From assembly GCA_002791595.1 (NCBI GenBank), contig PFXJ01000056.1, forward strand, positions 1 to 44,263: 44,263 nt of DNA, read 5' to 3'. This DNA comes from a candidate division Zixibacteria bacterium CG_4_9_14_3_um_filter_46_8 (GTDB taxonomy: Bacteria > Zixibacteria > MSB-5A5 > UM-FILTER-46-8). This document shows positions 3,171 through 44,250 of this stretch, piece after piece (within the stretch, counting starts at the first letter, position 1; each line of letters begins with the position of its first letter). The notes beneath the pieces are model-generated. The model made no database searches. It was not told where the DNA came from and worked only from the letters and a program-made list of their open reading frames with translations. The translations under genes and the position numbers were made by a program.

Positions 3171-4697
3171 ATGATTCAACTTGATGGAAGCAACCTAACC
3201 ATAGAACAACTTCGCGATATAGCGCGGAATAAAGAAAAGGTCGAATTCTCCCCGAAAGGGATTGAGAATATCGAGAAATGCCGGGCGATCATTACCGATA
3301 TGGTCGAATCCGGTATGGCAATATACGGTGTAACCACCGGCATCGGTGAATTCGCGCGCATCCGCGTATCGCCGGAACAAAGCGCCGAACTTCAACGGCG
3401 CATCATCTATTCGCACGCGGCCGGGACCGGCGATCCCCAGCCGATCGATGTCGTCCGCGGCGCGATGGTGTGCCGGGCGAATACTCTAGCCAAAGGTTAC
3501 TCTGGCGTTCGTCTCAAATTGGCGAATATATTTTTGGAGTTATTGAACAAGGAAGTGACTCCATTTGTGTTCGAAAAGGGTTCGGTGGGGACATCCGGAG
3601 ACCTTTCTCCGATGGCGCAATTGGCGGAAGTCTGTCTTGGCGAAGGCGAGGCCTATTATCAGGGCCAACGGATGCCCGGCGGAGAAGCGCTGAAGCGCGC
3701 CGGCATCCAACCGGTTGATTTGTCTTACAAAGAAGGGCTGGGCCTAATCAATGGTTCGCAGATGACCGCCGCGGGAGCGTCGCTACTGCTCATCGATGCC
3801 CGCAATCTTTTGAAGAATGCGTTTATCGCCGCCGCCATGACTATCGATGCCCTCAAAGGAGTCCTCAAGGCGTATGATGCCCGCTACCATGCGGTTCGTC
3901 CTTTCAAAGGCCAGAATGCGGTGGCTCATAATTTACGGACCCTGATGGCTGGCTCGGAAATAATCGCCGAGAAATCAAGCAAGGTGCAAGATGGATATTC
4001 GATGCGCTGCACTCCCCAGGTTTTGGGGCCGTCGGTGGACACCTGGTTTTATATGCGGGAGCAGATTGAAACCGAAATTAATTCTGCCGCTGACAATCCG
4101 CTCTTCTTCCCGGCGGATAAGGATTATATCGCGGGAGGCAATTTCCATGGGCAGGTTATAGGGATGGTTACCGATTTCCTCTGCATTGCTATGAGCGAAG
4201 TTGCCAATCTTTCCGAACGGCATACCAATCGGCTTCTCAATCCGGTTCTCTCCGGTCTGCCTGATTTTCTGGTGGAAGGGCGCGGTTTGAATTCCGGCTT
4301 GATGGTTTCGCAATATACCGCCGCCGCTCTCGTGTCCGAAAACAAAGTGCTTTCGCATCCTTCGACGGTCGATTCGATTTCGGTTTCCGCAGATCAAGAA
4401 GACCATGTGGCGATGACTCCGGTTGCGGTCCGCAAATGCACTGAGATCCTCAAAAATGTGGGCGCAGTGTTGGCGATAGAGATGATGTGCGCGGCGCAGG
4501 CGTTTGATTTCCGGAAACCGTTGCGCCCCGGCAAAGGCACCGCGGTTGCTTATGATTTGATTCGCAAGTATGTAACTCACCTCGAAGTTGATCGCGTTCT
4601 CTATCCCGATATCAACAAGATTGCGGAGCTGGTGCGCAGTGGTGAGATAGTCAAAGCAGTGGAAAAGGAAATTGGCGAATTGCCGCTGAGGTTGTAG
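3171..4697 (+). CDS. hutH: Histidine/aromatic amino acid ammonia-lyase family (HutH-like)
   Basis: Enzymes of this family eliminate ammonia from histidine or an aromatic amino acid, using a self-formed methylidene-imidazolone (MIO) group. The 508 residues match the usual length. Family landmarks are in order: YGVTTGIGEFA near residue 47, the MIO loop GSVGTSGDLSPM with Thr141-Ser142-Gly143, YSMRCTPQVLGP, LNSGLMVSQYTAAAL, and SADQEDHVAMTP. The MIO triad is TSG rather than the usual ASG. The specificity pair S81-H82, in IIYSHAAGTG, is the one seen in histidine ammonia-lyases rather than the HL or FL of tyrosine and phenylalanine lyases. No hutU or hutI lies nearby, so a histidine-degradation role is not supported by context. 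The ATG is preceded by TTGGAG. Confidence 0.88.
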   Translation: MIQLDGSNLTIEQLRDIARNKEKVEFSPKGIENIEKCRAIITDMVESGMAIYGVTTGIGEFARIRVSPEQSAELQRRIIYSHAAGTGDPQPIDVVRGAMVCRANTLAKGYSGVRLKLANIFLELLNKEVTPFVFEKGSVGTSGDLSPMAQLAEVCLGEGEAYYQGQRMPGGEALKRAGIQPVDLSYKEGLGLINGSQMTAAGASLLLIDARNLLKNAFIAAAMTIDALKGVLKAYDARYHAVRPFKGQNAVAHNLRTLMAGSEIIAEKSSKVQDGYSMRCTPQVLGPSVDTWFYMREQIETEINSAADNPLFFPADKDYIAGGNFHGQVIGMVTDFLCIAMSEVANLSERHTNRLLNPVLSGLPDFLVEGRGLNSGLMVSQYTAAALVSENKVLSHPSTVDSISVSADQEDHVAMTPVAVRKCTEILKNVGAVLAIEMMCAAQAFDFRKPLRPGKGTAVAYDLIRKYVTHLEVDRVLYPDINKIAELVRSGEIVKAVEKEIGELPLRL

Positions 4698-14326: not shown

Positions 14327-16291
14327 ATGAAGTATCTCGTGACCGTTTCATTACTATTTTTTCTCACAGGAAATGCAACCGGTCAGGAAGCCTCGGGGGA
14401 TTCTGTCCAGCTTCCGCAACTGAAAGAGATCCTGTTGCCGATCCTTCGCGGGGCGCTGATCACCAATGATGACCTCCGCCTCCGGGACGATTATCTTAAA
14501 AGGGATTCCATGCGTATAGCGCTGGTCGATTCCTTCATGACAGACCCGTTTTATCTGGAGGCTTTTGGCAAGGAGGTTTATGATGAGCTGGCGAAAGATC
14601 CTCCTCTCTGGAAATTGCTGAATTATTGCTCGCAACTACTTCGTCCCCTCTCGAAGGAATTCGCTCCTGTCGCACCCAATAAGTCCATCCTAAAACCTCA
14701 CGATTTACCGGGGGAAACAAACCGTCCGATCAGGCCACCCGCGGCTCAACCGAAGTTCACAAAAATGCCCGATAAACTTCGGATCTCGCTGAACACCCTG
14801 TATAATGCCGCTTTCAATGCCCGGGAATTCTATGACGAAGCATTTCGGGAAGTGAATCGTGACAGCTTGATCTATGGGTTTACGATGCTATTGACCGATG
14901 ATGAAATGAATGAGAAGAAGTCAGTGGAGGAGTTGGACAGCCTCGAAAAAATGGGTGAAGAGTGGAGCAAAGCGCTGGCTGATATCCTGCCCAGATTCAA
15001 AATGGGGGCGCTGCTCGCCGGCGGCAAGATAATGGCGAGGCCTATAGATGATTTGCTCGTTGCAGGCAAAGATGACCTATTCTCTGGGTTTAAGCTCGAG
15101 AAGCCTTCCGAAATTGAAACCGAATTAGGCAAAGTTGCTATCGGAACCGAAGCGAATGATAATTACTCCGGACGCTATTTTGCCATCATCGATCCCGGCG
15201 GCGATGATAAATATCAATTGTATCCAACGTATGGAGGCCAGATCACCGTAATCATCGATTATTCCGGCAATGATGTCTATCGATTTGTGAACGACTCTCT
15301 TTATACTTTCACTCCCACAGCCAAAACTTTGATTCGTCGTCCCCTCGGCATCGGGGGTTATAAATTCCTGATTGACTATGGCGGGGATGACATTTTCAAT
15401 GGCGATGATTTCACTCTGGCGGCAGGCATTCTTGGAATTTCGGTTTTCAAGGATTATGACGGCGATGATACTTACATTACTGATACTTTCGGGCCTGCAT
15501 CGGGAGCAATGGGAGTTGGCCTTCTGATGGATTTTAAGGGACGCGATACCTACAATGGAGCGATGTATAACGAAGGATTTGGCTTCACCGGAGGTCTGGG
15601 AATCCTCTTCGATAAAGCCGGCCACGATAATTATCTTTCCGGCGGCAAATATGGCGACATCCTTCGCTATACGGATCATTATATAACTTTTTCACAGGGT
15701 GCGGCCTATGGGCTACGGCCCTATTTTTCGGGCGGCATCGGGATGTTACTGGATGGCTCCGGGAATGATCTCTATGTTTCAGATATCTTCGGTCAGGCGT
15801 CCGGTTACTGGTATTCTGCCGGAATTATTTATGATGCCTCGGGCAATGACCGGTATCAGAGTTTCCAGTATGCGCAGGGAGCAGGAGCCCACATGGCGGT
15901 CGGATGTCTCCGCGACGATTCCGGGGATGATGTCTATTTTTCCAAAGGCGTTTCTCAAGGATGCGGCCATGATTACTGTCAGGGATGGTTAGTCGATTAT
16001 TCCGGCAATGACCTTTATAGCGCTTATGATCTTTCTCAGGGAGCCGGTTCCGCCAACGGCATCGGCGCCATAATCGATATCAAGGGCGATGACCGCTACT
16101 ATGTAAAATCAGACCAAAATACGCAGGGATATGGAAGGCCTAACCGGGAATATGGTTCCATCGGCCTGTTTTATGATGGCGCCGGCCTCGATCATTATGT
16201 GGGCGGTTTGGGAAAAGATTCAGACATCTGGATATATTCCACGTGGGGCATTGGCTGGGATCAGCCAACGGACAGTACGAAGACAAAATGA
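14327..16291 (+). CDS. Secreted protein with twelve D-x-G-x-D-x-Y repeats
   Basis: This 654-residue protein has a signal peptide (residues 1-20, ending NATG). A helical, charged N-terminal half of about 280 residues follows. From about residue 288 to 620 the motif D-(x)-x-G-x-D-x-Y/F recurs twelve times at 25-45-residue spacing: DPGGDDKY, DYSGNDVY, DYGGDDIF, DYDGDDTY, DFKGRDTY, DKAGHDNY, DGSGNDLY, DASGNDRY, DDSGDDVY, DYSGNDLY, DIKGDDRY and DGAGLDHY. Glycine-rich linkers such as FSQGAAYG and YAQGAGAHM separate them. The spacing suggests a beta-solenoid or propeller with Asp-rich, possibly calcium-binding, turns. Its ATGA overlap with the HEAT-repeat gene implies coupled synthesis. I cannot name a function. 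Confidence 0.75.
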   Translation: MKYLVTVSLLFFLTGNATGQEASGDSVQLPQLKEILLPILRGALITNDDLRLRDDYLKRDSMRIALVDSFMTDPFYLEAFGKEVYDELAKDPPLWKLLNYCSQLLRPLSKEFAPVAPNKSILKPHDLPGETNRPIRPPAAQPKFTKMPDKLRISLNTLYNAAFNAREFYDEAFREVNRDSLIYGFTMLLTDDEMNEKKSVEELDSLEKMGEEWSKALADILPRFKMGALLAGGKIMARPIDDLLVAGKDDLFSGFKLEKPSEIETELGKVAIGTEANDNYSGRYFAIIDPGGDDKYQLYPTYGGQITVIIDYSGNDVYRFVNDSLYTFTPTAKTLIRRPLGIGGYKFLIDYGGDDIFNGDDFTLAAGILGISVFKDYDGDDTYITDTFGPASGAMGVGLLMDFKGRDTYNGAMYNEGFGFTGGLGILFDKAGHDNYLSGGKYGDILRYTDHYITFSQGAAYGLRPYFSGGIGMLLDGSGNDLYVSDIFGQASGYWYSAGIIYDASGNDRYQSFQYAQGAGAHMAVGCLRDDSGDDVYFSKGVSQGCGHDYCQGWLVDYSGNDLYSAYDLSQGAGSANGIGAIIDIKGDDRYYVKSDQNTQGYGRPNREYGSIGLFYDGAGLDHYVGGLGKDSDIWIYSTWGIGWDQPTDSTKTK

Positions 16292-31959: not shown

Positions 31960-33495
31960 ATGCAGGAATTAATCGAATCAATTCCGTTGCTTGAAATAAG
32001 AAGAATAGCCCTGGCGGTAGTGTATGCCGGAATCGCTTTCTTGGCCTTGAAGCTGATTTTGAGGTTCCTGAAGCGTCTGCCTCCGATTGCGAAAGCATCC
32101 AAGCTGGCCAACCTCACGATCGGCCTTGCGACAATTTATATTTTCCTCTGGAGGATCAGTGGAATAAAAGAGAATTTCATTTACGGCTTGCTGCTGGCGC
32201 TGATATTGCTCTTTAGCGGATACCTTGCCATTGTGACTGCTGAATACTTCCTGTTCGATTTTCTCAAGCGGCGGGATCTCAAGCGGACAAGGTCGGGCCT
32301 ACCTCGCGATGTTTTGCGTATGATCGTGCTTTTGATGGTTACCTATGGCGTCTTTCTGGCAGTGTTTCATTTCAATCTTTCCACTATCCTGGTATCATCC
32401 GCGGTTTTGACCGCCGTTCTGGGTCTTGCTCTTCAGGATGTTCTAAGCAGCGTCCTGGCTGGAGTCGCCCTGCATCTTGAAAAACCATTTAATGTGGGTG
32501 ATTGGGTGCAAATCTCCGGAAAGGAAGGGGAAGTGGTCAACGTAAGTTGGCGGGCGACCCGTATCAAAACCCTCGGAAATGACTACGTGGTGATACCGAA
32601 TAATACCGTCTCCAAAACCGATATAGTGAACTATACCCAGCCCGATCCTCGTCAAGGTCAATGGCTATATGTAAGCGCCAGCTACAATGATCCTCCCAAT
32701 AAAGTCAAAAAGGCCCTCTTGGAACTGGCGGCGCAAGTCCCGGGCATTCTAAAAGACCCTCCACCGGTCGCGAGGACCAAGGAATATCAGGATTTCGGCA
32801 TCAATTATGAATGTCGGTATTTCATAAATGATTTCTATAACCATCCTGAAATCCATCAGGATTTTGCCTCCCGCGTCTGGTATAAATTCAAACGAGAAAA
32901 CATTGAAATACCCTTTCCTATTCGCACTTTGCGAAACCTGGACTGGGCTGAGCAGAAGAAAACCGCAGACGCTGAATTGGATACACAGAAGGTGCGAGGC
33001 TATTTGAGATCCGTCGCACTTTTCGATGATCTATCGGATCAAGAAATAGATAATCTGGCGATTGAATCCCCACTATATAGTTATGGAGTCGCGGAGGATG
33101 TCATAGAACAAGGAGACGAAGGAACCTCGATGTTCATCATCGCCACCGGCGGAGTGAAGGTCCTTATCAATGAAAATGAAATTGAAACTGAATTAGCTGC
33201 ATTGGGACCGGGCGAAGCCTTCGGGGAGATGTCGCTTTTGACCGGCCAGAAGAGAAATGCCACGGTCCGGTGTACTGAAGATGCGCAATTAGTGGAGATC
33301 ACAAAAGGGAATTTCAAGAATATCTTGTTGCAGGATCCGGGGCTGGTTGAAAAATTAAGCGAGAAGATGAGCAGCAGGGCTCTTGAGTTAAAAGCGAAGC
33401 TTAGCGCTACCAGCCAGATTTTGAGCGCCCAAATAGATGGCGAGGCTGAAAAGGAAAGCTTCCTCAAAACCATCAAAAACTTTTTCGAATTATAG
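31960..33495 (+). CDS. MscS-type mechanosensitive channel with C-terminal cyclic-nucleotide-binding domain
   Basis: The N-terminal part has four or more membrane helices. The MscS pore and beta domain are clear: SSAVLTAVLGLALQDVLSSV, HLEKPFNVGDWVQISGKEGE and NDYVVIPNNTVSKTDIVNY. After about residue 345 comes a cNMP-binding (CAP-like) domain with the phosphate-binding cassette GPGEAFGEMSLLTGQKRNAT. This suggests channel gating, or its modulation, by a cyclic nucleotide. The fusion also occurs in some other bacteria. The ATG lacks a clear ribosome-binding site and lies 9 bases after cdsA. Confidence 0.92.
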   Translation: MQELIESIPLLEIRRIALAVVYAGIAFLALKLILRFLKRLPPIAKASKLANLTIGLATIYIFLWRISGIKENFIYGLLLALILLFSGYLAIVTAEYFLFDFLKRRDLKRTRSGLPRDVLRMIVLLMVTYGVFLAVFHFNLSTILVSSAVLTAVLGLALQDVLSSVLAGVALHLEKPFNVGDWVQISGKEGEVVNVSWRATRIKTLGNDYVVIPNNTVSKTDIVNYTQPDPRQGQWLYVSASYNDPPNKVKKALLELAAQVPGILKDPPPVARTKEYQDFGINYECRYFINDFYNHPEIHQDFASRVWYKFKRENIEIPFPIRTLRNLDWAEQKKTADAELDTQKVRGYLRSVALFDDLSDQEIDNLAIESPLYSYGVAEDVIEQGDEGTSMFIIATGGVKVLINENEIETELAALGPGEAFGEMSLLTGQKRNATVRCTEDAQLVEITKGNFKNILLQDPGLVEKLSEKMSSRALELKAKLSATSQILSAQIDGEAEKESFLKTIKNFFEL

Positions 33496-35028: not shown

Positions 35029-36144
35029 ATGCCCAAATTAGTCCATACGGCAGATATCCACCTCGGTTCCAAATATTCCGGCTTGGGAAGAGCTGGGAGT
35101 CGGATGAGAAATTACCAAAAACGCAGTTTCAAAGCAATTATTGACGCTGTCCTTGCCCGGCAGGCCGATGCCCTGATTATCGCCGGGGATTTATTCGATT
35201 CGCCGCTCGTCTCCAGTTCCACCTATCGGTTCGTTGCTGAACAGATCAGCCGCCTCGGCGAGATACCAGCCATTGTCATCCCCGGCACCCATGATCCAGC
35301 CAACTCCAATGCCATCTGGGAAAGTCTTAAAAAGGAATCTCAATCAACCAATCTTCACCTGATATTGGAACCCGAACAAAGCCCGCTAACATTGGCAGGC
35401 CTCGATATAGTATTTTGGGTGATACCTAACCTGAATGCGAATTCCGCTCTTTCGCCTATTCCGAAGCTCACGGATCGGACTCTGGGCAAATATCATGTTG
35501 CCATAGCTCACGGCTCGGCAACCATTGGTGACCTTTCCGGCGGAATGGATTTTCCGTTTATGGAAAGCGATATTCGCGAGGCAGGCTTTGACTATGTTGC
35601 ACTTGGTCATTGGCATTCATTCAAGCAGATTGGGCAATCAAATGCCTATTACTGCGGTTCCTCGGAGAATACAAAATTTGGGCTTGGCGATGCCGGGAAT
35701 ATACTGATAGTTGATCTTGATGAATCCGGTGTGCGAGTGGAGAAGGTGAAAGTTGGTATGACAAATTGGCATGACCTAAGCTTAAGCACCGGGATAGTCA
35801 AATCCCCGGGTGACATCTTGAAAGAACTTGAAGCTTATGCGGGAGATGCCAATTTGATGCGTTGCAGAATCATCGGCCCGCAACTTACCGGTATTAATTT
35901 CGATATCGAGCAAATTGAAAAGGAACTCGATGACCAATTCTGCTTCATCCAAATTGCCGACGAGACTTCCGCCGATGAAATCTTAAAGATAGTTCCCACC
36001 TACTCGGCGTTCACTATCACAGGCCAGTTTGTCAAGAATATAAAGGAGCGAATGGTATCAGCCACACCCGAAATGAAGGAAGTCTTGGAAGAGTCGCTTA
36101 AACTGGGCTGCCGACTGCTTGCCGGAGAGAAAGTCGATAAATAA
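35029..36144 (+). CDS. Mre11/SbcD-like metallophosphoesterase (YhaO type)
   Basis: The N-terminal two-metal phosphoesterase core is intact: VHTADIHLGSKYSGLG, ALIIAGDLFDSP, VIPGTHDPANS, AIAHGSA and VALGHWHSF. After residue 280 the remaining C-terminal region resembles the cap of YhaO-like nucleases. The gene is followed 2 bases later by a Rad50-like ATPase, so the two almost certainly form a nuclease-ATPase complex for DNA end processing. The 371-residue size is closer to YhaO than to SbcD. Confidence 0.85.
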   Translation: MPKLVHTADIHLGSKYSGLGRAGSRMRNYQKRSFKAIIDAVLARQADALIIAGDLFDSPLVSSSTYRFVAEQISRLGEIPAIVIPGTHDPANSNAIWESLKKESQSTNLHLILEPEQSPLTLAGLDIVFWVIPNLNANSALSPIPKLTDRTLGKYHVAIAHGSATIGDLSGGMDFPFMESDIREAGFDYVALGHWHSFKQIGQSNAYYCGSSENTKFGLGDAGNILIVDLDESGVRVEKVKVGMTNWHDLSLSTGIVKSPGDILKELEAYAGDANLMRCRIIGPQLTGINFDIEQIEKELDDQFCFIQIADETSADEILKIVPTYSAFTITGQFVKNIKERMVSATPEMKEVLEESLKLGCRLLAGEKVDK

Positions 36145-36146
36145 TT

Positions 36147-38249
36147 ATGAATATCAGCAAATTAAACATCAGCAATTTTGGCAAATTCTCCGATTTCGAG
36201 GCGTCTTTTGCGCCCGGAATCAATGTCATAAAAGGTCGCAATGAAGCAGGCAAATCCACAATGGTAGAGGCTATCCTCAATGCTCTTTTCACCGATGCCT
36301 CCAGCAAGAAGAGATCCATTAAAGACCGCTTCAAGTGGGGGACGGAAGGAGCCAGAATAGAAGTCAACCTCTCTTCATCTGAAGGTGATTTCAATCTTAA
36401 TAAGGATTTCCTCTCCGGAGTCCAGATCGCAGAAGAAAACCGGTCGCATAACAAATGGGAAACCAAAGAACATTGGGGAAATTTCCTCGAAAGTAAACTG
36501 GGGATTTCCAACGAGGATCTTTTTTGTGCCACGGCCTGCATCCGCCAGAATGAGATTGCCCTGATTTCAGGATCATCCGATGCTTTGCGGGACAAGCTGG
36601 AGAGTATCATCACTGGCGGCCAAGAGGAAGTAATCGCCGGCAAGGTAATAGAGAATCTTAATAAACGGATAAATGAGATTAAAAAAAGCGGCGCCAAAGA
36701 ACCGGGCATCCTCAAGCGCCTTGAGAGTGAGGCTGAAGACCTTAGCTACGAAGTAGAAAAAATGTCGCGCGAGATGGAAGCGATGGAAGCCAGAAGAAGG
36801 GAGATGGCCGAAGTCACTTCCAAGCTTGACTTTACATCGCAGGAACTCTTCAAAAAGCAGGAAATGCTCGAAAAGTGGCAATCTGCTGTCAAAGCCGCCG
36901 AAGAAAAGCGTGAGCTGGAGAGAAGATATGATGACCTCAAAGGTAAATTAGATGAGCTGAATGCTTCGCAGCAGAAAGTAATCGAATGCCGCCAACAGAT
37001 TAGCGGAAAACCGGAAATCCGAAAACAAGATATGAATCTTGTTGATGAAATGGAGTCCCGGATACGCTATCTCGAAAGTAAGCTTCATAATCTCGAAAGT
37101 GACGAGAAAGTCCCCAAAGCCGATCTCGAGAAAATCGGAAGTCTGGCATTTTTATCTGTTCTCAACGTCGTCAACTCTTTGGCATTTATTGGATGCCTTG
37201 CGGCCGGCTTTTTTCTCAACCCGATAATAGCCCTTGGTTCGGCCCCATTCCTGGTCACGCAAATTTTCTTATTCGCTAAGCTATGGAAACAGTATTCACG
37301 CCGAACCGCATTGGAAAACCAATTCAGATTCATCGGTGAGAGAATATCCGAAGTTCGTCAGGAAATTGAGGGAGGTCTGGACACGGTTTCCCAGATTGTT
37401 GCCAAATATGAGTTCCATTCCTCTATTCAGATGCGCGAGTCTCATTCATTTATTGAAGATATTCATAGGAAAATCAATGACGAAACAGCTCGTTACGAAA
37501 GTATCCTCGCCGGAAAAAACCAAAAGGATTTGCAACAACTGCTGAATCAGGTAACGCGGGATCTGGCAGTTATAACAGATCGATTGGAATTCATTGGTAT
37601 TTTCGCTGTGAACATTGATGATCTTCAGAAATTGAAAACCGAGGTCGAGGGACTCTCTAGGGAGAGAGTGAGACTTGAGGGGAAGAAAAACTTCCTCATT
37701 GAACAGTTGGAGCTAACAGAGGGCGGAGGCGAACAGCTATCATCATTTCAGGAAAGATTGGAGCATAATCGAATGATGTATGAGCGCTACAACCGTCGCT
37801 TGAATGTATATAAAATGACATCGACCCTTATCGATGAGGCCAGAACTGAAATCCTGAAATCGACTGCCGTATTTCTGGAAAATAAAGTTGGTGAGTATCT
37901 CTCAGGCATCACCTCCGGAAAATATTCCAAGATCCGTTTTGATAAGTCGAATCTCGAATTTACCGTCTTCTCATCTGAGAAGCAAGATTGGGTAAGCCCC
38001 GACCAGGTTCTTTCACGGGGGACAGTTGACCAGATCTACCTCTGTGCCCGTCTGGCGCTCTTGAATTTTATAACAGCAACCCAAAAACCATTCATAATAC
38101 TTGATGATCCTTTTGTTCATTTCGATGCCGACCGAACCCAAAAGGCGATATCCTTGCTGAAGCAGATGTCCACCGATTACCAGGTGCTTCTTTTCACCAC
38201 CAGCGACAATTATGATAGCTGCGCTAATAATCTAATAAATCTTCAATAA
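36147..38249 (+). CDS. Rad50/SbcC/RecF-like AAA ATPase (YhaN type) with central membrane segments
   Basis: The Walker A in INVIKGRNEAGKSTMVEAIL and the C-terminal signature and Walker B in LSRGTVDQIYLCARLALLNF and FIILDDPFVHFDADRTQKAI define an SMC-type ATPase. Long coiled coils (about residues 190-330 and 400-560) lie between the two halves. In the middle are two hydrophobic segments (FLSVLNVVNSLAFIGCLAAG, ALGSAPFLVTQIFLFAKLW). A membrane hairpin between the coiled coils is a trait of YhaN-like proteins, not of SbcC/Rad50. It is operonic with the phosphoesterase. It probably acts on DNA ends at the membrane; the process is unknown. Confidence 0.83.
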   Translation: MNISKLNISNFGKFSDFEASFAPGINVIKGRNEAGKSTMVEAILNALFTDASSKKRSIKDRFKWGTEGARIEVNLSSSEGDFNLNKDFLSGVQIAEENRSHNKWETKEHWGNFLESKLGISNEDLFCATACIRQNEIALISGSSDALRDKLESIITGGQEEVIAGKVIENLNKRINEIKKSGAKEPGILKRLESEAEDLSYEVEKMSREMEAMEARRREMAEVTSKLDFTSQELFKKQEMLEKWQSAVKAAEEKRELERRYDDLKGKLDELNASQQKVIECRQQISGKPEIRKQDMNLVDEMESRIRYLESKLHNLESDEKVPKADLEKIGSLAFLSVLNVVNSLAFIGCLAAGFFLNPIIALGSAPFLVTQIFLFAKLWKQYSRRTALENQFRFIGERISEVRQEIEGGLDTVSQIVAKYEFHSSIQMRESHSFIEDIHRKINDETARYESILAGKNQKDLQQLLNQVTRDLAVITDRLEFIGIFAVNIDDLQKLKTEVEGLSRERVRLEGKKNFLIEQLELTEGGGEQLSSFQERLEHNRMMYERYNRRLNVYKMTSTLIDEARTEILKSTAVFLENKVGEYLSGITSGKYSKIRFDKSNLEFTVFSSEKQDWVSPDQVLSRGTVDQIYLCARLALLNFITATQKPFIILDDPFVHFDADRTQKAISLLKQMSTDYQVLLFTTSDNYDSCANNLINLQ

Positions 38250-38302
38250 ATATATTTGCAGTAGATTCCCAAAATATTTATCTTGGTGAGGGAGGTACCA
38301 GA

Positions 38303-38815
38303 ATGAGAGAGTTGTGGGCTTCATGGCGGAGTGAATTCATTCTTGGCGAGAAGGAAAAGAAATGCATCTTTTGCAAGAGGGGTCGCCAAAATAGGCTACG
38401 GCGAAATCTTATCCTGTATTCCGGCAAGTATTCGTTTGTTATAATTAATCTCTACCCATACAATCCAGGTCATTTGATGGTCGTCCCTTATAGGCATCTT
38501 AAAAAAATAGAAAGCCTTACAGATGCTGAACATTGCGAAATGACCCAGTTGATGGTGTTATCGGTTAAGATATTGAAGAAGATTTTCAAACCGCATGGGT
38601 TTAACATCGGCATGAACCTTGGGGCAGTCGCCGGTGCTGGCATCAAGCATCATCTGCATTACCATATTGTCCCCCGCTTCATCGGCGATACCAACTTCCT
38701 GCCGGCAGTGGGGAAAACCAGGCTGATGTCCATCGGATTGGACCAGATATATGATAAATTGAAGCCCGAATTCGACCGCCATCAAAAACAGGGCAAATTG
38801 GCTCATTCAAAATGA
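38303..38815 (+). CDS. HIT-family protein (Ap4A phosphorylase-like)
   Basis: This histidine-triad nucleotide enzyme has an N-terminal zinc-type CIFCKRG and the catalytic HHLHYHIVPRFIGDTNF. The last segment, in particular the GDTNF end, is typical of the bacterial Ap4A phosphorylase type. Substrate specificity is inferred. GGGAGG precedes the ATG. The ATGA overlap links it to the aconitase-like HTH gene, so the two are likely to be produced together. Confidence 0.88.
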   Translation: MRELWASWRSEFILGEKEKKCIFCKRGRQNRLRRNLILYSGKYSFVIINLYPYNPGHLMVVPYRHLKKIESLTDAEHCEMTQLMVLSVKILKKIFKPHGFNIGMNLGAVAGAGIKHHLHYHIVPRFIGDTNFLPAVGKTRLMSIGLDQIYDKLKPEFDRHQKQGKLAHSK

Positions 38816-40380
38816 AATGTCCATCAAAAAAAGAGCTGGCTGACCTGCAACGACGCTTCCGAACCGACAAAAAAATCGCCGAATTGTTAGGAGTGAAATC
38901 GTACCTGGTTACTTACTGGCGGCGGAAGAAAGGCATTCTCGCCTATTCTTCTCCTAAATATGCCAAAGGCGAAGTGATGGAAGTTTGGGAACACCTCGGA
39001 GATGACAAGCTGGCTGGTCAGGCTCTTGGGATAAGCGGCAACGCCTTCCGATACTGGCGGAAAAAATACGGGATTACCGATAAGCCAGTACATCTAAAAT
39101 TTGAGCAGATTCAATTGCCTCTGCCAGGTTTGGACCGACTCACAGGAAGTGATGTCAGAAAAAGCTTCTTGCACAAAATTATTGAAAGCAGGTGCGACAA
39201 TTCTTATGGGGGAGCCGATACTTACTTGATCGATCCGGATCGGATTTATGTCGGGGACTTCAATCAAAGCCTTCTCGAATTGCTGAAAACCAATGGCATC
39301 AAAGGCCTTAAGAATCCGAGCAAGGTTTTCGGGCTGTATCCCGGGAATGTAGTGGAAAATGGTTTCAGGAAAGAAATGAGCAAACTGCATGATTATGGGA
39401 ATCTTTCGTTTCCGACTTGCGGCGGCCATGTCTTCGACGCTCTTTCGAAAGGCCATATCCTGCCCTCGGAATTAGTCATAAGCTGCGATCCGGCGGTCAT
39501 CGGAGCGGGGGCAATCGGGGCCCTCGGTTTGCAGGCTACAGAATGTAAGCTTGCGGAGGCTTTGGCTACCGGAAAAGCAAACATCCAGAAATTCGATGTT
39601 TTTCAGGTCGTGTTGCTTGACCATCCTCCCAAGTATGTTCATCCATTGGATATAGTCATGTTTCTAAAATCACGGAAAGGCCTGGAAAATATGGCAGAAA
39701 TTGCGATTGAATATTCGGGTGATTCCATCGATCATCTCGACTTTGAGAGACGATTCACGCTCTGTTATCTTTCACGAATCTTTGACTGTATCTCCGCCTG
39801 TATTCCCTGTGATAAAAAGACCGAAAAGTTTCTGCGTAGAAAAGCGGTCCTTAAGTTCCATCCGATTCAATCAGATCCCGGTCATATCTATTACGGATCT
39901 CTGCGACAATCGGTGCTTGAAATAGAACTCTCGATTGGAATTCTCAAAAATGGGAATTTTGTCAGTGAGCCGCTGTCCAGTAACTTGAACAGAAAAGTCG
40001 ATACCGTGATCGCCGGATTCTATTCAGGAGGAATGTACAAAGATATAATTGAAATCAGTGCAATATTAAACAGGAAAAAAGTAAATCCGGGCATTCGGAT
40101 GTTCATTCGTCCAGCAACTCAAGATATTCTCCTCAGGATCTTGGAGGAAGGGGTTTTCAAGCAATTAGTCATGGCGGGCTGCTCCATACTTCCACCATCA
40201 CCGGCATTTATTGATGTCGGTTTCCCGGCAATTCAGCCTGAACTTGGATCTGTCCTGGTGACAGATCCCTCCGCCTTGCCATTGTTTCCCGAGGATTATC
40301 CTCATCCCATTTACCTCGCTAATCACCAGATTGCCGGTATCTCGGCGTTAAATGGTTGTCTGTCCGATCCCCGCGCTTGA
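38812..40380 (+). CDS. Tandem HTH units fused to an aconitase-fold domain without catalytic residues
   Basis: Two similar helix-turn-helix units lie at about residues 6-42 and 53-88. Both run h-A-x-x-L-G-h, then YWR-x-K-x-GI (IAELLGVKSYLVTYWRRKKG; LAGQALGISGNAFRYWRKKY). The rest aligns with the aconitase/isopropylmalate-dehydratase large subunit: GAGAIGALGLQATECKLAEA, HPLDIVMFLKSRKG, RRFTLCYLS, YLANHQIAGISALNGCLSDP. The active-site motif DSHT reads Asp226-Pro-Ala-Val. The position of the first cluster Cys (GSCTN) is Phe403, and those of the CxxC pair are Pro464 and Ile467. It therefore should not hold an Fe-S cluster. A ligand-sensing, DNA-binding regulator is the simplest reading; this is inference. 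Confidence 0.75.
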   Translation: MKCPSKKELADLQRRFRTDKKIAELLGVKSYLVTYWRRKKGILAYSSPKYAKGEVMEVWEHLGDDKLAGQALGISGNAFRYWRKKYGITDKPVHLKFEQIQLPLPGLDRLTGSDVRKSFLHKIIESRCDNSYGGADTYLIDPDRIYVGDFNQSLLELLKTNGIKGLKNPSKVFGLYPGNVVENGFRKEMSKLHDYGNLSFPTCGGHVFDALSKGHILPSELVISCDPAVIGAGAIGALGLQATECKLAEALATGKANIQKFDVFQVVLLDHPPKYVHPLDIVMFLKSRKGLENMAEIAIEYSGDSIDHLDFERRFTLCYLSRIFDCISACIPCDKKTEKFLRRKAVLKFHPIQSDPGHIYYGSLRQSVLEIELSIGILKNGNFVSEPLSSNLNRKVDTVIAGFYSGGMYKDIIEISAILNRKKVNPGIRMFIRPATQDILLRILEEGVFKQLVMAGCSILPPSPAFIDVGFPAIQPELGSVLVTDPSALPLFPEDYPHPIYLANHQIAGISALNGCLSDPRA

Positions 40381-42126: not shown

Positions 42127-44250
42127 ATGAAAAAGCTGTTAATGCTATCAGTTTTGTGCGGGATTGTTTTAGGTTTCACAACTCTGGTCGGGGCTAATCC
42201 CGGCGATACCCTGTGGACGCGGACTTATGGGGGCAACAGTACTGATTACGCTTGGTCCGTCCAAGAGACCGCCGACGGGGGATACATAATCGCCGGTTGG
42301 ACAGTTTCCTTCGGCGGTTTGGATTTCTATCTAGTGAAAACCGATGCCAGCGGGGATACCCAGTGGACGCGGATTTATGACCACGACGGTGATAATGAGG
42401 CCTACTCCGCCCAACAGACGACTGACGGAGGATACATAATCGCCGGTTGGACCGTAGGCATGAATTTCTATTTGGTGAAAACCGACGCCGGGGGGAATAC
42501 CCTGTGGACAAGGACTTATGGGGGCAGTATGAGTGATTGGGCTTACTCTGTCCAACAAACGACCGACGGGGGATACATAATCGCCGGTTTCACCTATTCT
42601 TTCGGCGCGGGTAACTCTGATTGCTACCTGGTGAAAACCAACGCAGATGGGGATACGCTATGGACGCGGACTTACGGGGGCAGTTTTAATGATGAGGCTT
42701 ACTCCGTTCAACAGACCACCGACGGCGGATACATAATCGCCGGTAGGACCGGTTCCTTCGGCGCCGGTTACAGCGATATCTACCTGGTGAAAACCGACGC
42801 CGGCGGGGATACCCTATGGACGCGGACCTATGGGGGCTGGAGTAATGATGAGGCTCATTCCATCCAACAAACCACTGATGGGGGGTACATAATCGCCGGT
42901 TATACCGGTTCGTTCGGCGCCGGTAACTCCGACTTCTACCTAATGAAAACCGACGCCAACGGGGATACTCTTTGGACGCGGACTTGGGGAGATAGTGAAC
43001 AAGATGAGGCTTTCTCGGTCCAACAGACGACCGACGGGGGATACATCATCGCCGGTAGGACTGAATCCTTCGGCGCCGGTTCGAACGATATCTACCTGGT
43101 GAAAACCGATGCCGGTGGGAATACCCTGTGGACCCGGACTTATGGGGGCAGTAATTATGAGTACGCTTACTCCGTCCAACAGACGACCGATGGGGGATAC
43201 ATAATCGCTGGCTGGACCGGGTCCTTCGGCGCCGGTGCCCTCGATTTCGGCTTGGTGAAGGTCAAGGGTGAAAACCCTGCTGTCATCGACATAGTCAATA
43301 GCCCTAAATATCCGGGGCCAGACCAGCTCTGCGAAGTTTCGGCAATCATCACCGACTTCTATGATGGCTGGGTGGATTACGCTGACCTTCATTACGACAC
43401 CGGCTCCGGCTATACGTCAATTCTCATGAGCAATGCCGCCGATTCTTTCTATGCCACCATCCCCGGTCAACCGGAAAGCACGCTGGTCAACTATTACATC
43501 ATTGCAACCGACAACCTTGGATCTACGACCGCATCTGACACTTTCTCTTATTTTGTGGTTGAAAAAGTCGCCTCGATTTATATGCTCCCGATGCACCCGC
43601 CGATAGAGGTCTCACCTGGCAGTTATTTCACATTTATTGGCGTCCTCCAGAATGATACACCAGTGCCGCAAGCCATCGATGTCTGGATAATGCTCGATGT
43701 TCCGGGAATCGGAAGTTATGGGCCTATAAGTCGATATAACAATGTCCCTCTTGCGCCGAATCAGGTGATCTGGAGCGGGGCAGTTAGGCAGAATATACCG
43801 TCATTCGCGCCGCTTGGTGATTACCAATATTACGCCATCTGCGGTGATTATGGAGAATCTGGCCCGGAGGTGGTAATCGATTCGGCATCATTCCCATTCA
43901 CGGTGATACCAGGGAAAATATCGGGGGGCGCGACCGATTGGAAATTGAGCGGCTGGTTCGATAATGATAATCAGGAAAATAGGCCGATAGAATTCTCTCT
44001 CTCCAATAGTTATCCAAATCCTTTCAATGCCTCTACCACCATCGAATATCAAATGCCTTTTGATTCCAAAGTGAAATTGGAGATTTTCAATCTGCGCGGG
44101 CAAAAAGTGGCTACGTTAGTGGATGGGAATATCCCCGCGGGCAATCATCAAGTGAGTTGGGATGCTTCGCAATATTCCAGCGGGATATATTTCTATCGAC
44201 TGGTGGTTGGGGAGAAAACGTTTGCCCAGCGGATGACGTTGTTGAAGTGA
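42127..44250 (+). CDS. Seven-repeat (probable beta-propeller) surface protein with type IX sorting domain
   Basis: The 707-residue protein has a signal peptide (LSVLCGIVLGFTTLVGA). Seven repeats of about 50-55 residues follow, each running WTRTYGG, then SVQQTTDGGYIIAG, FGAG and YLVKTDA. Seven units of this size suggest a seven-bladed propeller. From about residue 385 come Ig-like or beta-sandwich segments. The last 80 residues are a sorting domain: SNSYPNPFNASTTIEYQMP, FNLRGQKVATLVDG, SSGIYFYRLVVG and the end RMTLLK. This is how FCB-group type IX substrates end. Ligand and role are unknown; adhesion or a structural surface function is plausible. Confidence 0.85.
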   Translation: MKKLLMLSVLCGIVLGFTTLVGANPGDTLWTRTYGGNSTDYAWSVQETADGGYIIAGWTVSFGGLDFYLVKTDASGDTQWTRIYDHDGDNEAYSAQQTTDGGYIIAGWTVGMNFYLVKTDAGGNTLWTRTYGGSMSDWAYSVQQTTDGGYIIAGFTYSFGAGNSDCYLVKTNADGDTLWTRTYGGSFNDEAYSVQQTTDGGYIIAGRTGSFGAGYSDIYLVKTDAGGDTLWTRTYGGWSNDEAHSIQQTTDGGYIIAGYTGSFGAGNSDFYLMKTDANGDTLWTRTWGDSEQDEAFSVQQTTDGGYIIAGRTESFGAGSNDIYLVKTDAGGNTLWTRTYGGSNYEYAYSVQQTTDGGYIIAGWTGSFGAGALDFGLVKVKGENPAVIDIVNSPKYPGPDQLCEVSAIITDFYDGWVDYADLHYDTGSGYTSILMSNAADSFYATIPGQPESTLVNYYIIATDNLGSTTASDTFSYFVVEKVASIYMLPMHPPIEVSPGSYFTFIGVLQNDTPVPQAIDVWIMLDVPGIGSYGPISRYNNVPLAPNQVIWSGAVRQNIPSFAPLGDYQYYAICGDYGESGPEVVIDSASFPFTVIPGKISGGATDWKLSGWFDNDNQENRPIEFSLSNSYPNPFNASTTIEYQMPFDSKVKLEIFNLRGQKVATLVDGNIPAGNHQVSWDASQYSSGIYFYRLVVGEKTFAQRMTLLK
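42206..43260 (+). repeat. Coding tandem array of seven ~150-160-bp units
   Basis: The seven protein repeats are also highly alike as DNA. For example, the stretch encoding DGGYIIAG, GGATACATAATCGCCGGT, recurs in nearly every unit with at most one or two changes. Low synonymous divergence points to recent duplication or ongoing gene conversion between units. Confidence 0.7.

Follow-up and report, generated by a model that had tools for sequence, protein, structure and literature searches.

Gene regulators are known to arise by fusion of a helix-turn-helix (HTH) domain with a metabolic fold, and to our knowledge none with an aconitase fold has been described. Trigger enzymes such as PutA and BirA carry a DNA-binding domain of their own; we know of no trigger enzyme that uses the aconitase fold. 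In enzyme-derived repressors, such as the ROK family (e.g. NagC) and the MocR/GntR-aminotransferase proteins, an HTH is likewise fused to a metabolic fold, catalysis is often lost and the ligand pocket is generally kept. The regulatory aconitases IRP1/ACO1 and AcnA/AcnB carry a swivel domain, bind RNA, keep their cysteines and switch reversibly, whereas the protein described here has a separate HTH and has lost its cluster site genetically.

The fold of this protein is that of the large subunits of isopropylmalate isomerase (IPMI) and homoaconitase (LeuC/HacA; PF00330, TIGR01343, TIGR02086; PDB 4kp1, 4kp2), but it adds a tandem HTH and is without the three cysteines, the DSHT motif and LeuD. 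As in IRP1/ACO1 and AcnA/AcnB, an aconitase fold would have a regulatory role tied to the absence of the cluster, and the moonlighting aconitases act by binding RNA (PMC6978683). The neighbouring gene product has its best NCBIfam match in the HIT-type Ap4A phosphorylases/ATP adenylyltransferases (M. tuberculosis Rv2613c type; PMC7705103) and carries the full HIT motif, but it scores below the family cut-off, and only in Zixibacteria was it seen constantly paired with an HTH-aconitase. Neither an aconitase-HTH fusion nor any work on Zixibacteria aconitases turned up in our literature search, in agreement with the initial annotation, which knew of no family with this layout. We consider the protein to be probably a Zixibacteria-specific transcription regulator with one copy per genome, whose ancestor was an isopropylmalate isomerase fused to an HTH.

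Gene layout and the tandem HTH

The window, i.e. the whole stretch of DNA analysed, covers positions 1 to 44,263 of contig PFXJ01000056.1 of a candidate division Zixibacteria bacterium. The regulator ORF (38812..40380, + strand) starts with ATG, is open throughout and encodes 522 amino acids, with two tandem HTH units in residues 1-92 and a LeuC-like IPMI/aconitase large-subunit domain in residues 126-522 (Table 1). The AlphaFold2 model, built from a 61-sequence alignment (mean pLDDT 88.7), consists of two three-helix HTHs followed by an IPMI fold. The ATGA overlap with the HIT gene suggests coupled translation. The promoter read upstream of the HIT gene is regarded as weak evidence because the consensus promoter scan did not list TTGCAG-17-TATCTT there. 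No Rfam match was found in the window.

Table 1 Features of the HIT-regulator locus in the window
Feature	Coordinates	Strand	Observation
Short intergenic stretch preceding the HIT gene	38254..38302	+	Read by eye: sigma-70-like TTGCAG-17-TATCTT, GGAGG ribosome site
HIT-family nucleotide enzyme, 170 aa	38303..38815	+	HLHYHIV = HxHxHxx; Pfam HIT 4.6e-14; NCBIfam 9.7e-40; same-strand upstream neighbour in 99/99 loci
ATGA overlap, HIT stop/regulator start	38812..38815	+	4 bp, more frequent in the family than any other spacing
First HTH unit, residues 1-42, recognition helix 30-39	38812..38937	+	AlphaFold2 helices H6-16, H19-26, H30-39; family entropy 0.83 bit
Second HTH unit, residues 48-92, recognition helix 76-85	38953..39087	+	Helices H52-62, H65-71, H76-85; family entropy 1.05 bit
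Linker, residues 93-125	39088..39186	+	Residues 97-113 disordered in the model (pLDDT < 50)
Degenerate IPMI/aconitase large-subunit domain, residues 126-522	39187..40377	+	DPAV 226-229, E300 kept, Y404, P464, I467

Other genes were also noted in the window. Directly 5' of the HIT gene (35029-38249) lie an SbcD/Mre11-like nuclease and a short Rad50-like ATPase (700 aa), and genes related to this pair occupy the same position in about 10-14 of 99 loci. Further away are a full-length aromatic amino acid lyase of the histidine/phenylalanine ammonia-lyase family (3171-4697; Pfam 9.8e-181), a 654-aa ORF with no Pfam match at 0.001 (14327-16291), a cyclic-nucleotide-binding domain fused to an MscS-type mechanosensitive channel (31960-33495) and a repeat protein with WTRTYGG-type repeats (DUF5122) and a Por-type secretion sorting tail (42127-44250).

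Two tandem YWR-x-K-x-GI units fused in frame to an aconitase/IPMI region had been reported in the initial annotation, and both were recovered (YWRRKKGI, residues 35-42; YWRKKYGI, residues 81-88) and modelled as HTHs. The units are identical to each other at 10 of 24 residues. An HTH fold, a conserved recognition helix and positive charge were all found in the window protein, and no part of the family alignment is more conserved than the HTH (entropy 0.83 and 1.05 bits for the two units vs 2.08 bits). Its likeness to known HTH families is weak (HTH_Tnp_1 and HTH_23, best E about 5e-4), a search of solved structures with the HTH sequence alone gave nothing significant, and the operator search upstream of the HIT genes yielded no widely common k-mer or motif. 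The modelled fold, the net charge of +11 and the conservation suggest that the tandem HTH binds DNA.

The aconitase domain and its former active site

The domain matched Pfam Aconitase (PF00330) at 1.7e-17 (64 bits vs a cut-off of 28.7) and the NCBIfam IPMI/HacA large-subunit model at 7.9e-37 over residues 212-521; the latter score (126.9 bits) is below the cut-off of 385, and the protein falls under every NCBIfam cut-off. Among solved structures, 4kp2 was matched by sequence (2.1e-17), and the top Foldseek matches were the IPMI/homoaconitase large subunits 4kp1 (E=1e-34), 4kp2 and 4nqy.

Substitutions were judged against the three canonical paralogues of the same genome (L002-L004) and the family alignment. 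None of the three [4Fe-4S] cysteine ligands is left, as C358, C421 and C424 are replaced by Tyr404, Pro464 and Ile467, and DSHT has become DPAV at residues 226-229. Alignment with IPMI/aconitase therefore bore out the replacements first proposed for DSHT and the CxxC cysteines; the loss of the GSCTN cysteine also stood, but this residue aligns with Tyr404 and not with the adjacent Phe403 originally named. Further losses are D100 to P177, H101 to G178, N446 to P486, R447 to S487 and R452 to F492. Among 14 catalytic and cluster positions, only D226 (D165) and E300 (E262) are retained, and E300 does not vary in any of the 98 aligned members. The window protein is predicted to be catalytically inactive. 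No LeuD lies beside the window gene, and since the three LeuDs of its genome each adjoin a canonical LeuC, the protein seems to work alone.

The fold also raises the question of a post-transcriptional regulator that would bind RNA, as apo-IRP1 and AcnB do, through its paired HTHs and its cluster-less aconitase fold. We regard this as unlikely. Although known aconitases bind mRNA on cluster loss (PMC6978683) and the model gave a weak fold match to the IRP1-RNA complex 3snp (TM-score 0.45), the most conserved part of the protein is the HTH, a typical DNA reader, and the only LeuDs of the genome sit beside canonical LeuCs. The window protein is also without the swivel domain that IRP1 and AcnB carry. 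Nor does it have the reversible cluster of IRP1/AcnB-type regulators, as the cysteine ligands are absent.

Distribution, HIT pairing and graded loss

Of 133 Zixibacteria genomes, 121 carried exactly one copy of the HTH pair (77 of the 79 good ones), and no copy was found in 254 genomes of other phyla, nearly all genomes compared being metagenome bins. Full-length homologues (E<=1e-30) were present in 99 of the 133 genomes, and HTH and aconitase regions were encoded in the same order at all 99 fetched loci. A single-sequence scan of named genome contigs gave no homologue; the alignment-based search of named contigs gave 93 loci, and the 80 retained almost all had Zixibacteria in their titles. 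Matching public contigs were almost all assigned to Candidatus Zixiibacteriota, Zixibacteria or GN15, with a few other titles (e.g. Calditrichota, Ignavibacterium). No relatives were found in the viral contigs searched, and plasmid places listed as relatives were rejected as ordinary aconitase-family genes.

An artefact, either a pseudogene or two genes joined by assembly, has a negligible probability. One of the 99 homologues (L042, G062:C69) is cut at 268 aa by an in-frame TAA around 3746, which is either a sequencing error or a recent loss; against this stand 99 homologues from many assemblies with the same order and long open frames, and dN/dS values well below 1 in sister pairs. With full-length homologues in the HTH-aconitase order in 99 genomes, an assembly join of the HTH part, which had been named as a possible objection, is excluded.

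At every one of the 99 loci a HIT gene with an intact HxHxHxx motif lies directly upstream on the same strand. The two-gene module proposed from the overlap is thus supported, both the HTH-aconitase order and the HIT neighbour being conserved throughout. The nearest NCBIfam model of the HIT protein is ATP adenylyltransferase (NF052622), and because the likeness to ATP adenylyltransferase/Ap4A phosphorylase is below the family cut-off, a nucleotide signal from this enzyme is a suggestion only. In eukaryotes, Ap4A is bound by HINT1, a HIT protein that controls a transcription factor (PMC7705103); the parallel may be drawn as an analogy only. An apparent HIT-HTH-LeuC fusion in G105 was traced to N runs and rejected as an artefact.

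An orphan N6/N4 DNA methylase (PF01555), present as a single copy, was often found near the HIT-regulator pair in family f6 (L055:7937-9414, L070:2877-4351, L062:1048-2478 and L067:2847-4278). In L055 and L070 the methylase gene ends in a 4-bp overlap with a degenerate LeuD gene, and in L062 and L067 a degenerate LeuD follows it within 30 bp.

A chromosome-architecture or DNA-methylation accessory protein, that is, a universal DNA binder with the aconitase fold as scaffold, would fit a single-copy, near-universal gene as well as the adjoining f6 methylase and its overlap with LeuD. However, the methylase is confined to f6 genomes (45 at E<=1e-40) and absent from the genome of the window, and the constant neighbour is the HIT gene; this explanation is very improbable.

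In the case of the active site, the family is graded. Ten members (L038, L041, L047, L049, L052, L060, L065, L088, L127 and L130) keep all 14 residues, and nine of them have a LeuD with GSSRE at +1; the contig of the tenth ends 373 bp downstream. L049, an early-branching intact member adjoining a LeuD gene, scores above the curated cut-offs of TIGR01343 and TIGR02086. The layout of the ten matches that of the trigger enzymes, from which the family differs in having lost the active site in most Zixibacteria members. Twelve further members keep the three cysteines and have lost other active-site residues. In trees rooted on canonical LeuC, the HTH family formed one group (support 99), near whose base the intact forms branched, and a group of 85 degenerate rows was recovered with support 97. 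The long-branched degenerate row L114 was placed outside the latter and may represent a second independent loss. By the branching order of these sequences, the cluster-less form is derived. The loss of the cluster had initially been called permanent, which holds for the window protein and not for the whole family; homologues keeping the three cysteines and DSHT, named beforehand as counter-evidence, do exist in these ten members, and they are the early-branching ones.

LeuD sequences decay in parallel with the LeuC active site. GSSRE is gone in all 11 loci with an incomplete LeuC site and a family LeuD nearby, and one such LeuD was modelled with the IPMI small-subunit fold retained (pLDDT 86.4, best match 3vba). 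In family f11 a degenerate HTH-LeuC lies just upstream of a canonical intact leuD (L120:2776-4939, L124:4362-6524), which might point to a link between the regulator and leucine biosynthesis. This neighbouring LeuD was rejected as a family partner as it belongs to the ordinary leuD lineage.

Shift of selection and proposed function

Identities between intact pairs were 1.00 for catalytic sites, 0.76 for the domain and 0.70 for the HTH; for degenerate pairs (0.4-0.5 domain-identity bin) they were 0.18, 0.45 and 0.80, respectively. The HTH had an NG86 dN/dS of 0-0.06 in degenerate sister pairs, compared with 0.05-0.2 for the domain; the two intact pairs with usable dS gave 0.09-0.11 and 0.05-0.06, respectively, the HTH being the faster part there. 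These contrasts indicate that selection still maintains the fold of the domain and that constraint has moved from the active site to the HTH. The catalytic columns of the 88 non-intact members rank with the most variable ones in the fold, and the columns H101, S166, H167, C424, R447 and R452 lie in the 91st-99th percentile of variability. As the old pocket varies like free surface across the phylum, a common ligand there is unlikely, which disfavours the earlier suggestion that the fold senses a tricarboxylate or similar compound.

The exception, seen only in f1, the family of the window protein, is an old active site that appears re-conserved. The former catalytic columns of f1 are more conserved than the remaining domain (6/13 vs 21 %, p=0.04), and when L036 was left out the values for three of the four members were 10/13 vs 30 % (p=8e-4, a post hoc test). 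In this comparison the alignment is less certain for columns near R447/R452. Outside f1 the old pocket is hypervariable, which, together with the different fold, separates the Zixibacteria family from the ROK and MocR regulators.

The f1 site could instead mark a new activity of an enzyme with altered chemistry, the HTH being a mere attachment. Besides the f1 columns, purifying selection on the domain in other degenerate lineages and the invariant E300 fit such an enzyme. Yet cluster ligands, LeuD partner, DSHT and both arginines are all missing, the site is randomised across the phylum while the HTH is not, and the stronger of the f1 tests is post hoc. We find this quite unlikely.

The transcription regulator reading is supported, as shown at the level of sequence, by architecture, distribution, neighbourhood, graded loss and the shift of constraint. 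The family appears to record the passage from enzyme to gene regulator step by step, since the active site is complete in few lineages and decayed elsewhere. In the mechanism we propose, the tandem HTH would bind a conserved DNA site. The early form would be a trigger enzyme whose cluster or substrate state tunes DNA binding; in the derived form, including that of the window, catalysis would be gone and the fold would serve as effector and assembly module. In f1 a new Pro/Tyr-rich cleft may have become fixed at the old active-site columns, with a different ligand or a protein partner as its probable target. The least certain step concerns the HIT enzyme, which is probably co-transcribed with the regulator and may produce or consume a nucleotide that signals within this circuit.

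More tentatively, the protein may be a phylum-wide core regulator always paired with an active HIT enzyme, with each stage preserved in living lineages: first an Fe-S enzyme (HTH-LeuC + LeuD), then complexes of pseudo-LeuC and pseudo-LeuD, and finally a transcription factor of one subunit that has no cluster and whose pocket is newly fixed. The HIT enzyme and regulator would then form a new nucleotide-linked signalling circuit; we hold this scenario as a whole possible but doubtful.

The enzyme-derived regulator is already known as a general idea, and the present case is one of an aconitase fold with an unusually complete evolutionary record. Since a single orthologous series holds enzyme-like, intermediate and dead-enzyme forms with a measurable shift of selection, the route from enzyme to transcription factor can be tested on real intermediates. 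Being near-universal, single-copy and so far found only in Zixibacteria, the gene is a candidate core regulator and marker gene of this mostly uncultured phylum.
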